DNA of 64,000 nucleotides from NCBI GenBank assembly GCA_009711825.1, contig VEMY01000038.1, positions 1 through 64,000 of the forward strand, given 5' to 3'. The notes under the pieces are model-generated. The model was not told where the DNA came from. It made no database searches and was given only the letters and a program-made list of their open reading frames with translations. This DNA comes from Bacillota bacterium. Its GTDB lineage: Bacteria > Bacillota > Proteinivoracia > UBA4975 > VEMY01. The position numbers and the translations under genes are program-made. Shown here piece after piece: positions 41,384-45,830 of this stretch. The stretch's first letter is position 1. Each line of letters starts with the position of its first letter.

Positions 41384-41396
41384 CTAAACCCTGAAC

Positions 41397-41690
41397 CAAA
41401 ACAAGCAGATTAGCCATCAAGGGCCAACCTGCTTGTTTTTTCTTACGCCAGCCGGGTGTCGGCCGGCAGCATCGAGACCTGGGGTTTATCCCGCCGGGGA
41501 TGGCGGAAGATCTCCACCTCGCAGCCATACAGCGCCCGGATGTTGGCGGCTGTAATCACCGTATCTACATCGCCGGTGGTCATAACCCTTCCCGCCTTCA
41601 TCGCCACCAATCGCCGGGGGCCTCGGTCTGCCAGCGCTTCAGGCAGGGCAGGCGTCCCATGCGCACCACTTCCTCAACAGTGAACTCAAC
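41397..41690 (-). pseudogene. Truncated, internally deleted copy of btuD
   Basis: The DNA matches 44988-45556 at roughly 94 percent by eye, including the shared terminator hairpin (41397-41440). A 277-bp internal stretch is missing: 45202-45210 and 45479-45487 are both AATCGCCGG, and only one copy is left here at 41609-41617. 277 is not a multiple of three, so the frame shifts and the ATPase signature, Walker B and H-loop are lost. It ends in a REP element. Confidence 0.85.
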
Positions 41691-41694
41691 ACCC

Positions 41695-41882
41695 CGGACA
41701 GGGGGGCAGGTCCCTTGTCCGGATGGGGAGGCACGTTAGCATAAAAGTAAAACTACACCATAAGCTACTCAATTAAAGCAATGAAAAATCTGTGCAGGGA
41801 GGCAATTTGTTTTTTACGCTGGCCGTCAACTGGTAGCTTCAGGGTTCATGCATCCCGTACGAGGGGCCTGTCCCCTCGTCCG
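41695..41882. mobile_element. MITE-like element B (about 188 bp, inverted 27-bp ends)
   Basis: Same build as the element at 39911, with palindromic ends (CGGACAGGGGGGCAGG... and ...CCTGTCCCCTCGTCCG) in inverted orientation. The interior is similar to that of element A (for instance AAAGTAAAACTACACCATA). It interrupts or abuts the btuD remnant. Confidence 0.65.
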
Positions 41883-42012: not shown

Positions 42013-42243
42013 ATGGGAATTAGATCTTGTCAGTGTCCAGAACGCCTTACTGATTTTATTGGCCAGGAAATAACTGTTGAGACCATGTGTGGTGATGCCA
42101 AAACCGGGACATTGGTAGAAGTAGCAGATGACTATATTGAACTGAGTGCTGTTTCCGAGGAATTTGGTCCAATAATAATCCTTGTTCTTTGTTGCTATAT
42201 ATGTTCTTTTGAAGTAATAGTAGCTGGCAACTTTATTGAATAA
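42013..42243 (+). CDS. Small Cys-rich LSm-like protein (DUF2642-like), first gene of ATP-grasp cassette
   Basis: The 76-residue protein starts CQCPERLTDFIGQEITVETMCG and continues TGTLVEVADDYIEL, then LCCYICSF. Strand pattern and G-x-L-x-V motif resemble the small LSm-like DUF2642/YuzF domain of Bacillus. Six Cys are present (6, 8, 26, 60, 61, 64). The same N-terminal pattern CPERLxDxIG recurs in the protein at 43354. GGAGGG lies 6 nt before ATG. It is 50 bp upstream of the ATP-grasp gene. A spore-coat or surface role is plausible by association. Confidence 0.65.
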   Translation: MGIRSCQCPERLTDFIGQEITVETMCGDAKTGTLVEVADDYIELSAVSEEFGPIIILVLCCYICSFEVIVAGNFIE

Positions 42244-42293
42244 TTCAGGTCATACCGCTGTTAAAAATACTCTCCACAAGAGGAGGGATTGTT

Positions 42294-43316
42294 ATACTAA
42301 ATCAACTACTAATTGGGCTGCTAGTCAATAATCTTAGGGTAAGGCCAAAACCCTATTTTTTATCTAGTTCGCTAGGAGCCATGGTTTTCTGCTTTAGCCC
42401 AGCTGGTATTAACTGGTCAAAAGAAACAATCTCTGGTCTGTATTTTGTGAACGAAGAATGGAAGCGAGCTGTGTTTCCGTTTCCGGATGCGGTGTATAAC
42501 CGTTTATACAATAAGAAGCAGACCGGAGCCATGAAAAGCTTAGAAAGAAGCATCGGCTGGCAAAAGATTTTTAATAAAGTTACCCATCTAGATAAATGGC
42601 AAATTAACAACGCTCTAAGTAGCAATTCGCTACAGGCAAAACTACCGGGTACACAGCTTTATAATAAAGAGAATTTGTTTGATATGCTTGATCACTACCA
42701 TCATATTATTATCAAACCGCGTTACGGTTGTTTTGGTAGAAACATTTACTGTATTGAAAGTAACAATGACAAGTTTTTTATATATAGGCAAACCACCACA
42801 GCGAATTTGGTATTTACTGATCAAGGGGAGTTGTTAAATAAACTAGATAGCCTAATGCAGGGCAAAAAATACATTATCCAACAAAAAATTAAGCTTGCAG
42901 AAATTGATGGGCGATTATTTGACATTCGGGTCCTTGTTCAAAAAAACAAACATGGAAACTGGGTTGTTACCGGAAAATTATCTAGAATTGCAGTAAAAAA
43001 CTTTTATATAACCAACGTCTGCCAAGAAATAAGGCCGGTAACAGAAACCTTGCAGGAGTCTGGGCAGTTTACACCAGAATTAATAGCGGCTGTCGATGCC
43101 AGCAGTATTGAAGCAGCTAAATTGCTGGACAAAAAGCTCGGTCATTTAGGCGAAATTGGTATAGATTTTTGCATTGATTATAGAAACAAACTTTGGCTTC
43201 TTGAAGTAAATGGAAAGCCGATGAAAAATTTGTTTGAGCAACTAGATAATCAAAGGTTAATCAAGACCGTATATTTCCGCCCTTTGGAATATGCCGCTTT
43301 TTTAGCACAGAAATAA
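42294..43316 (+). CDS. YheC/YheD-family ATP-grasp protein, apparent non-AUG start
   Basis: The frame opens before the first ATG (42381). The conserved family N-terminus (IGLLVNNLRVRPKPYF, then CFSPAGINW and FPFPDAVYNR) is coded upstream of it, and AGGAGG (42281-42286) stands 7 nt before ATA 42294, so I take ATA as the probable start (340 residues). ATP-grasp motifs are intact: HHIIIKPRYGCFGRNIY (Lys, Gly-rich loop), DIRVLVQKN and FCIDYRNKLWLLEVNGKP (Asp, Glu, Asn metal ligands). YheC/YheD are endospore coat-associated in Bacillus subtilis; ATP-grasp enzymes form amide bonds through acyl phosphates, but the substrate is unknown. Confidence 0.8.
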   Translation: MLNQLLIGLLVNNLRVRPKPYFLSSSLGAMVFCFSPAGINWSKETISGLYFVNEEWKRAVFPFPDAVYNRLYNKKQTGAMKSLERSIGWQKIFNKVTHLDKWQINNALSSNSLQAKLPGTQLYNKENLFDMLDHYHHIIIKPRYGCFGRNIYCIESNNDKFFIYRQTTTANLVFTDQGELLNKLDSLMQGKKYIIQQKIKLAEIDGRLFDIRVLVQKNKHGNWVVTGKLSRIAVKNFYITNVCQEIRPVTETLQESGQFTPELIAAVDASSIEAAKLLDKKLGHLGEIGIDFCIDYRNKLWLLEVNGKPMKNLFEQLDNQRLIKTVYFRPLEYAAFLAQK

Positions 43317-43353
43317 TCTGGCTGCCCTCATAGTTTATTTGGGAGGTGTTAGG

Positions 43354-44250
43354 ATGATTGGTGTTCAGTGTCCAGAACGGTTAAATGACTGTATTGGACA
43401 TGATTTAATAGTAGAGACACTCTGTAATAGTTTTACAGGAGAGTTGGTGTCGGTAAATAACAATGAAATTGAACTTCTAATGGAAAACAATAATCTGCAG
43501 GTGATTTTATGCAACACAATATGTTCTATTACAATTCTGCCAATTTCAATGATCGACCAACCGTTTTTTGATAACTTTGAAGACTACCCCTTGGGAGATG
43601 TAGGTCCTGGCGCCAATGACGGCCCCTGGGCTGGGGCAACAGATGGTTTTGCTTTTGTAGTAAATATTGATGACGAAGGTATTCGTGCCAACACTCCCAT
43701 TGATCGATTTGGCTTTCAGCTACTTTACTTTGATAATCCCTTTGCGGCAAACAGTCCACCATCAATGGTCATTGATCAAGCCAGTAGAGAATTCAACAGT
43801 ACGACAGTTGGTTTGGAGTTCCCCACACCGATAATTCTCACTTTTGATATTCGGACGGTACAGACAGAATCTTTAGATCCGGGTATTCATGCCGAAGTAA
43901 ATATAGGCCGGGCCCGTGCAGGGAGATTTGTGCTTGCAACCAACGGCAATGGTGAATTGCGTGTTGCCCTTTTTTCCGGCAGCCCGCCTGATCCAGTTTT
44001 TGTATCCGATCCTTTGGTTTTTGGCCAGTGGTATCGGATAAGTTACGAATTGGATGTAGCTAACAACCGCTATAATTACATTGAAATAGACGGAGAGCGC
44101 TTTGACAATAATGGGGCAGGATGGGAAGCGAACGTTGGCGTCTTTGGTAATGATATCCAGCATATACTTTTAATTCAGGGAAGCTCCGATGCAGACCAAG
44201 AAGGGATCTATCTCGATAACGTATCAATCTGGGCCCCTATTTCTTGCTGA
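43354..44250 (+). CDS. LSm-like/jelly-roll fusion protein
   Basis: The 298-residue protein begins MIGVQCPERLNDCIG and has an N-terminal domain (about 1-65, with LCNTICSI) like the 76-residue protein at 42013. It is followed by a ~225-residue concanavalin-like jelly roll: FFDNFEDYPLG, WYRISYELDVANN and IYLDNVSIW. Such folds often bind carbohydrate. GGGAGG lies before ATG 43354, 37 bp after the ATP-grasp gene. No signal peptide is seen, consistent with a mother-cell spore-coat protein; that is inference. Confidence 0.72.
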   Translation: MIGVQCPERLNDCIGHDLIVETLCNSFTGELVSVNNNEIELLMENNNLQVILCNTICSITILPISMIDQPFFDNFEDYPLGDVGPGANDGPWAGATDGFAFVVNIDDEGIRANTPIDRFGFQLLYFDNPFAANSPPSMVIDQASREFNSTTVGLEFPTPIILTFDIRTVQTESLDPGIHAEVNIGRARAGRFVLATNGNGELRVALFSGSPPDPVFVSDPLVFGQWYRISYELDVANNRYNYIEIDGERFDNNGAGWEANVGVFGNDIQHILLIQGSSDADQEGIYLDNVSIWAPISC

Positions 44251-44662: not shown

Positions 44663-44971
44663 TTGGGCTGTGAACTGGTAGCTACTGGCGCCATACACCC
44701 GGTTGGGCGAGAAAAAGGCTACAGCGCCACCGGTGTTATGCATTCTGGAGAGTGGTCACTGTATTATGGATTCACTACCAATGACGAGGTCACAGATGTG
44801 GTTGTAAATTTTCAACCAAGAGATACAGATAGTATGGAGGTTGTCGAACTAGAGGTTAAATCCGGATTCTTTGTCCATGCAGTGCGGGCGGATAACCCGG
44901 TGCATACTGCTTGGTTAACCCGGGCAGATTTCTACGCTGATGAGAGATTGGTCAATACCATCGACAGGTAG
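44663..44971 (+). pseudogene. Lipoprotein gene lacking its normal start
   Basis: The frame from a stop at 44651 reads LLLLGCELVATG, which looks like the end of a lipoprotein signal (LLGC), but no proper start or full signal peptide precedes it. The 102-residue body has YYGFTTNDEVTDVVVNFQPRD and ADNPVHTAWLTRADFYADE; no family is recognised. The last ~60 bp are duplicated at 40111-40176. It may be a 5'-truncated gene. Confidence 0.5.
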
Positions 44972-44985
44972 ATTTGCCAGCTCAG

Positions 44986-45034
44986 AAAAAAAACAAGCAG
45001 ATTAGCCATCAAGGGCCAACCTGCTTGTTTTTTT
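44986..45034. terminator. Bidirectional terminator of the btuFCD operon
   Basis: AAACAAGCAG and CTGCTTGTTT pair around a GC-bearing loop, with T-runs on both strands. A duplicate is at 41397-41440. Confidence 0.8.
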
Positions 45035-45035
45035 C

Positions 45036-45830
45036 TTACGCCAGGCGGGTGTCCGCTGGCAGCATCGAAACCTGGGGTTTATCCCGCCGAGGATGGCGGA
45101 AGACCTCCACCGGGCAGCCATACAGCGCCCGGATGTTGGCGGCTGTGATCACCGTATCTACATCGCCGGTGGTCATAACCCTTCCCGCCTTCATCGCCAC
45201 CAATCGCCGGCAATAGAGGGCCGCCAGGTTGAGGTCATGAAGCACCGCAACAATCGTCACGCCCTGGCTGTTGAGCCGGGCCATTAGGTTAAAAAACTCC
45301 TGCTGGTGGGCCATGTCCAGATAGGTGGTGGGCTCATCCAAGAGCAGCACCTTGGGTTGCTGGGCCAGGGCCTGGGCCAGCAGCACCCGCTGGGCTTCAC
45401 CGCCGCTGAGGCGGGCCAGCTGCCGGTGCCGGAAAGGGGCAATGCCGGTGGTCGCCAGCGCCTCCTCGACAATCTCCGAATCGCCGGGGGCCTCGGTCTG
45501 CCAGCGCTTCAGGTAGGGCAGGCGCCCCATGCGCACCACTTCCTCGACGGTGAACTCAAAATCGGTGGCAGTCCCTTGGGACACCACGGCCACTTGCTTC
45601 GCCACCTGATTGCGGGAGAGCTTGCTGATGTCCTTATTGGCCAACAACACGCGGCCTTTCTGGGGTCGCAGGTAGCCCGCCAACAAGCGCAGGGCGGTAG
45701 ACTTGCCCGAACCGTTGGGGCCGATGATTCCGAGGAAATCTCCTGGGGGCACTGTCAAATTCATGTCCTGGAGCGCAAAAGAACCATTATGGCGGAATTC
45801 AACATGCTCCATGGCCAACAAAGCGTCCAT
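45036..45830 (-). CDS. btuD: Cobalamin/iron-complex ABC transporter ATPase (BtuD/FecE type)
   Basis: The 264-residue ATPase has Walker A GPNGSGKST, signature LSGGEAQRVLLAQAL, Walker B VLLLDEPTTYLD and H-loop VLHDL, as in FecE/BtuD. ATG 45830 overlaps the permease stop (TGATG). The cobalamin riboswitch at the head of the operon indicates vitamin B12 or a related corrinoid as substrate. A truncated copy lies at 41397-41690. Confidence 0.92.
   Translation of the reverse strand: MDALLAMEHVEFRHNGSFALQDMNLTVPPGDFLGIIGPNGSGKSTALRLLAGYLRPQKGRVLLANKDISKLSRNQVAKQVAVVSQGTATDFEFTVEEVVRMGRLPYLKRWQTEAPGDSEIVEEALATTGIAPFRHRQLARLSGGEAQRVLLAQALAQQPKVLLLDEPTTYLDMAHQQEFFNLMARLNSQGVTIVAVLHDLNLAALYCRRLVAMKAGRVMTTGDVDTVITAANIRALYGCPVEVFRHPRRDKPQVSMLPADTRLA

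Follow-up and report, generated by a model that had tools for sequence, protein, structure and literature searches.

A YheC/YheD ATP-grasp gene between genes for two Cys-rich Sm-like proteins: a putative spore-surface assembly cassette in a Bacillota bacterium

Introduction

On what do YheC and YheD, the ATP-grasp proteins of Pfam family PF14398, act? Bacillus subtilis spores are encased by YheD, a protein that associates strongly with itself and whose function is stated to be unknown (PMC7911427). No substrate for YheC/YheD was found in the literature that we searched. In another spore system, an E3F3 hexamer of alternating MnxE and MnxF subunits holds the manganese oxidase MnxG, an enzyme of spores (PMC5622069).

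Here we analyze a 64,000-nucleotide stretch of a Bacillota genome (contig VEMY01000038.1; hereafter the window) in which a gene for a YheC/YheD enzyme is flanked on both sides by genes for proteins with a Cys-rich, predicted Sm-like domain. We tentatively propose that the three genes form a cassette for the assembly of the spore surface.

Results

The cassette comprises three open reading frames on the plus strand, at 42013-42243, 42294 (or 42381)-43316, and 43354-44250. The intergenic gaps are about 50 bp and then 38 bp, and the three tight genes of the preliminary description are real. The first gene (42013-42243), preceded by the ribosome-binding site GGAGGG, encodes a 76-residue Cys-rich Sm-like protein, the first partner. 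The second encodes the ATP-grasp enzyme, and the third encodes a 298-residue protein consisting of an N-terminal Sm-like domain (43354-43551), the second partner, and a C-terminal passenger domain of 232 residues (43552-44250, with the stop codon). A good ribosome-binding site precedes all three genes, provided that the enzyme starts at the ATA codon at position 42294, in the context GAGGAGGG-ATTGTT-ATA. The first standard start codon of the enzyme reading frame, ATG 42381, has no good ribosome-binding site and lies downstream of the codons for the conserved N-terminal residues Leu18 and Gly21; thus, translation probably begins at ATA 42294, a rare start codon. The alternative is that the start codon of the enzyme gene has been mutated. 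Sigma-K-like sporulation promoters were considered and rejected: such sites occur at about the frequency found in shuffled sequences, and the transcription start implied by the one before 43354 falls inside the ribosome-binding site.

The G+C content of the cassette is 40%, versus 52.5% in five stretches of its own genome, in which 0.4% of 2.2-kb segments are as low. Direct repeats of 182, 81, and 49 nt with 95-96% identity connect the left flank (41393-41689) with the right flank (44985-45559). The right-hand sequence belongs to the 3' end of an intact ABC-ATPase gene on the minus strand, and its left-hand counterpart is a truncated duplicate of that 3' end and of the hairpin region downstream, with an internal deletion. 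The A+T-rich cassette and the fresh partial duplication flanking it suggest that the cassette was probably acquired recently, and insertion by recombination is the likely route. Two decayed-looking fragments of a similar gene are also present, one on either side, at 41821-41858 and 44663-44971 (74% identity over 38 nt).

The enzyme matches PF14398 over profile positions 3-255 of 255 with an E-value of 1.3e-65 (221.6 bits against a cut-off of 26.8). Across an alignment with 113 homologues, eight polar positions stand out as the most conserved (at least 97% each), namely Lys114, Lys154, Gln209, Asp223, Arg225, Asp304, Glu317, and Asn319, and all eight are intact in the window enzyme. Consequently, the enzyme looks active, in agreement with its first description as a YheC/YheD ATP-grasp protein with an intact active site. 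Its relatives among PDB sequences are weak and are mostly tubulin-tyrosine ligases. YheC/YheD genes are common in the phylum (104 of 399 sampled genomes), and the window's own genome (G000) contains several more, of which one is disrupted by in-frame stops; such stops are carried by the enzyme gene on contig C35.

Residues 1-66 of the 298-residue protein are 43% identical to the 76-residue protein, and both domains match one profile at 1e-24 to 1e-27. An AlphaFold2 model of the 76-residue protein built from 18 alignment rows has a pLDDT of 85.7 and displays a helix (residues 10-15) and five strands. The best Foldseek matches of this model are Sm-fold proteins, including Gemin6/7, LSm, and Hfq, with modest E-values (best 5e-3) and a probability of 1.00; at rank 5 is 9bxa_E, a chain of the Mn-oxidase complex Mnx. 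The Sm (LSm/Hfq) fold is therefore confidently predicted, and the earlier designation of this protein as LSm-like stands. At the sequence level, the protein falls short of the DUF2642 (PF10842) cut-off, with 18.1 bits versus 22.7; profile-profile comparison links the domain to DUF2642 at 93%. No sequence-level match to MnxE/F was found. Kinship with GerQ was considered and set aside, as the profile-profile comparison reached just 27% and the genome has no GerQ match.

The Sm fold itself would agree with RNA-binding regulators of the Hfq/LSm type, next to which the enzyme would be an unrelated neighbor. The Sm2 RNA-binding motif is absent, however, with Cys60-Cys61 aligned to its Arg-Gly position, which makes an RNA role for the domain unlikely and a Cys-lined interface plausible. 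The domain is moreover fused to partners of surface type (LysM, a beta-propeller, and the window passenger). We consider the regulator explanation highly improbable.

Pfam, NCBIfam, and PDB sequences contain no match to the 232-residue passenger, nor was a relative found among 379 phylum genomes, 72,556 plasmids, and 50,697 phages. A single-sequence fold prediction of the 298-residue protein was meaningless (pLDDT 31). Thus, of the architecture first described for this protein, the shared N-terminal domain is upheld by the identity and the common profile, and the jelly-roll C-terminus is not confirmed.

A gene for a Cys-rich Sm-like protein directly adjoins a YheC/YheD gene in six further genomes (G007, G009, G010, G140, G309, and a Clostridiaceae MAG, locus L172). 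The G007, G009, and G010 cases were found by reading the neighborhoods of YheC/YheD genes identified with PF14398. In G010 (L138/L074) and G009 (L140) the pair is convergent and conserved, and the G009 enzyme gene is itself interrupted. In G007 (L142) the neighboring protein carries its Sm-like domain in fusion with a YNCE-type beta-propeller, and its gene overlaps that of the enzyme. A search of 80 YheC/YheD-bearing genomes with an enlarged profile revealed one divergent pair each in G140 and G309. A scan of a genome collection found the G140 Sm-like protein, of 85 residues, again in a MAG named Thermincola ferriacetica; in the Clostridiaceae MAG, the two genes are again divergent and closely resemble the G309 pair, and a BclA-like gene lies at a distance of about 3.8 kb. 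With a profile containing none of the newly found members, L140 scores 4.5e-4, and G007 scores 0.0065 when it is left out of the profile. The first profile scan, covering about 40 neighborhoods, gave no Sm-like neighbor outside the window, and the neighbors came with the remaining loci of the class. A first scan of genome-collection contigs with the enzyme alone returned nothing, a plasmid search returned distant YheC/YheD proteins only and no Sm-like domain, and further genomes of G140's class yielded no second Sm-like gene.

The Sm-like domain also occurs apart from the enzyme. Contig C9 (L005) of the window's own genome has no YheC/YheD gene but encodes another two Sm-like proteins in overlapping reading frames, one a LysM-Sm fusion and the other solo. 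Similarly, the class relative G011 keeps only the LysM-Sm plus Sm pair, with no ATP-grasp gene nearby and six YheC/YheD genes elsewhere in its genome. These two pairs, at 5324-5954 of L005 and 1273-1930 of L024 (G011), are conserved across two families of the class. Their LysM domains are SafA-like; that of C9 reaches 59.5 bits with the SafA coat-assembly type, whose cut-off is 67.85. Among 399 genomes of the phylum, the strict Sm-like domain is strong only in G000 and G011; DUF2642 domains are found in 19 genomes. A broad linkage of DUF2642 with YheC/YheD was rejected, the DUF2642 matches being either distant from the listed YheC/YheD genes or on different contigs. Small proteins from one family that begin with CICPDVLEQFI and resemble the Sm-like domain are encoded at L150, L151, L152, and L154 (genomes G110, G245, G173, and G072), with no YheC/YheD gene within 1.5 kb.

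In the preliminary description, the domain shared by the two proteins was suggested to be the recognition or modified module of a ligase-substrate pair, a view against which free occurrence of the domain would count. Adjacency to YheC/YheD holds in the six other genomes, and the domain is a repeated neighbor of the enzyme and a constant module. What does not hold is exclusive dependence on the enzyme: a candidate substrate expected only with its ligase occurs in C9 and G011 with no ATP-grasp gene nearby, as do DUF2642 or similar domains elsewhere, so that the objection is partly sustained. The passengers vary, comprising the window passenger, the beta-propeller in G007, and LysM in C9 and G011. 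Since the Sm-like part is constant and these partners are variable, we read the domain as a putative anchoring or assembly module.

Could such a module simply hold the enzyme in place? A mixed Sm-like ring might retain the enzyme on the spore surface with no modification taking place, the enzyme acting elsewhere or being mainly structural. The Mnx chain at Foldseek rank 5, the MnxG-bound alternating hexamer of MnxE and MnxF (PMC5622069), the strong self-association of B. subtilis YheD (PMC7911427), and the paired Sm-like genes in the window, C9, and G011 are all consistent with this arrangement. However, a single Sm-like gene, not two, lies near the enzyme in G007, G009, G010, G140, G309, and L172, and the likeness to MnxE/F does not extend to the sequence level. 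We consider a scaffold of this kind rather unlikely.

The window enzyme belongs to an 11-member clade with 100/100 support, the others being the enzymes of G007, G009, G010, G309, L172, G000:C48c, G000:C35, G002:C13, G002:C14, and G017:C42. The enzyme from Thermincola is not a member. The tree was built with the two G009 enzyme fragments joined and all bases left as they are. If the window is left out and the count is confined to loci to which the enzyme itself led, an Sm-like neighbor is present at 3 of 8 clade loci and at none of about 35 others (p=0.0045); once loci are collapsed to lineages, it is present in 2 of 7 clade lineages (p=0.024). Here the 35 is approximate, the numbers are small, and the sampling is uneven. 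Most YheC/YheD genes have no Sm-like neighbor.

Other gene company bears on whether the pairing reflects plain clustering of coat genes, in which the Sm-like proteins would be one kind among many and would not interact with the enzyme. Other YheC/YheD loci adjoin CotE genes (a cluster in five genomes), a Cys-rich FGFCPxPP protein recurs near YheC/YheD in five genomes, also at C48 of the window's own genome, and BclA-like collagen genes are divergent from clade enzymes at C35 of that genome and at G002:C13. Given these other neighbors, co-assembled coat proteins explain the data almost as well, and the Sm-like domain does live without the enzyme in C9 and G011. Yet the same pair recurs in several families, its genes being arranged in tandem, convergently, or divergently, and the Sm-like neighbors are concentrated in one enzyme clade. 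We judge plain clustering to be unlikely.

Several of these neighbors deserve a description of their own. The BclA-like collagen proteins are encoded at 1916-2527 of L017 (minus strand; G000:C35), 7133-8371 of L094 (G002:C13), and 248-1060 of L172. The Cys-rich protein of 195-233 residues ending in FGFCPxPPxC is encoded at 4103-4759 of L015, with relatives in L083, L086, L089, and L101; neither of the two members scanned has a Pfam match, and it may thus represent a new coat protein family. Genes for COOH.NH2 ligase type 2 (assigned to PF14395 through the one member tested) recur near YheC/YheD in 10 genomes (7422-8912 of L122 and relatives), which suggests a multi-enzyme set forming amide bonds.

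Discussion

Because the same pairing is found in six other genomes, the three genes probably serve to build or tailor the spore surface (coat or exosporium). We tentatively favor, from comparison of sequences and gene neighborhoods, a cassette for spore-surface assembly in which variable passengers are anchored by the Sm-like domain, with the ATP-grasp enzyme as its tailoring partner. First, the Cys-rich Sm-like domain, as the constant module, would form rings or chains, in which the two paralogues may be mixed. Second, this module would attach the variable passenger to the spore surface as the latter forms. Third, the YheC/YheD enzyme, as the dedicated tailoring partner of the Sm-like proteins, would use ATP to activate a carboxylate and would add or cross-link a group on the proteins bearing the domain or at their site of assembly. 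We infer the spore-surface location, the oligomerization, and the enzyme-substrate relation from gene company and predicted fold, and the coat-type genes suggest that the source organism sporulates.

A more specific version, possible but doubtful, is that a dedicated YheC/YheD ligase covalently modifies or cross-links the Sm-like domain, which would act as a tag for sorting or anchoring so that variable passengers are displayed on the spore surface. If true, YheC/YheD would gain a substrate, and spores would have their own counterpart of sortase-like or RiPP-like tailoring. The nearest rivals of the tailoring explanation are the MnxE3F3-like scaffold and the clustering of coat genes, and a recognition or modified module is compatible with both tailoring and scaffolding. 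A compact cassette that contains a candidate partner of 76 residues, is repeated across lineages, and has its partner domain joined to differing passengers makes the question of the YheC/YheD substrate directly testable. It also suggests that spore surfaces repeatedly use the Cys-rich Sm-like module as a building block.

How does the cassette compare with known systems? The window enzyme resembles the coat-associated YheC/YheD of B. subtilis in its full-profile match to the family, its conserved active-site residues, and its spore-surface gene company; it differs in belonging to a clade with a short N-terminus, in its two flanking Sm-like proteins, and in its probable ATA start. Likewise, MnxE and MnxF of the spore Mn oxidase (PDB 9bxa) share the Sm-like fold according to Foldseek and the combination of two small, paralogue-like proteins with a spore-surface enzyme, whereas their partner is a multicopper oxidase and the window proteins do not match them in sequence. 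The DUF2642 proteins, small Sm-like proteins of Bacillota of which one is encoded beside a Mn-catalase gene, are homologous by profile-profile comparison and of the same size. In contrast to these, the window domain scores below the family cut-off, is Cys-rich, begins with CxC, has CC/CxxxC at the Sm2 position, and is fused to passengers. Finally, BclA-like collagen/C1q-type proteins, which are encoded beside the same ATP-grasp clade at C35 and G002:C13 and at some distance from it in L172, have no counterpart of their BclA_C domain in the 298-residue protein; like them, this protein combines an N-terminal part with a C-terminal display domain, the collagen stalk being replaced by the Sm-like domain.
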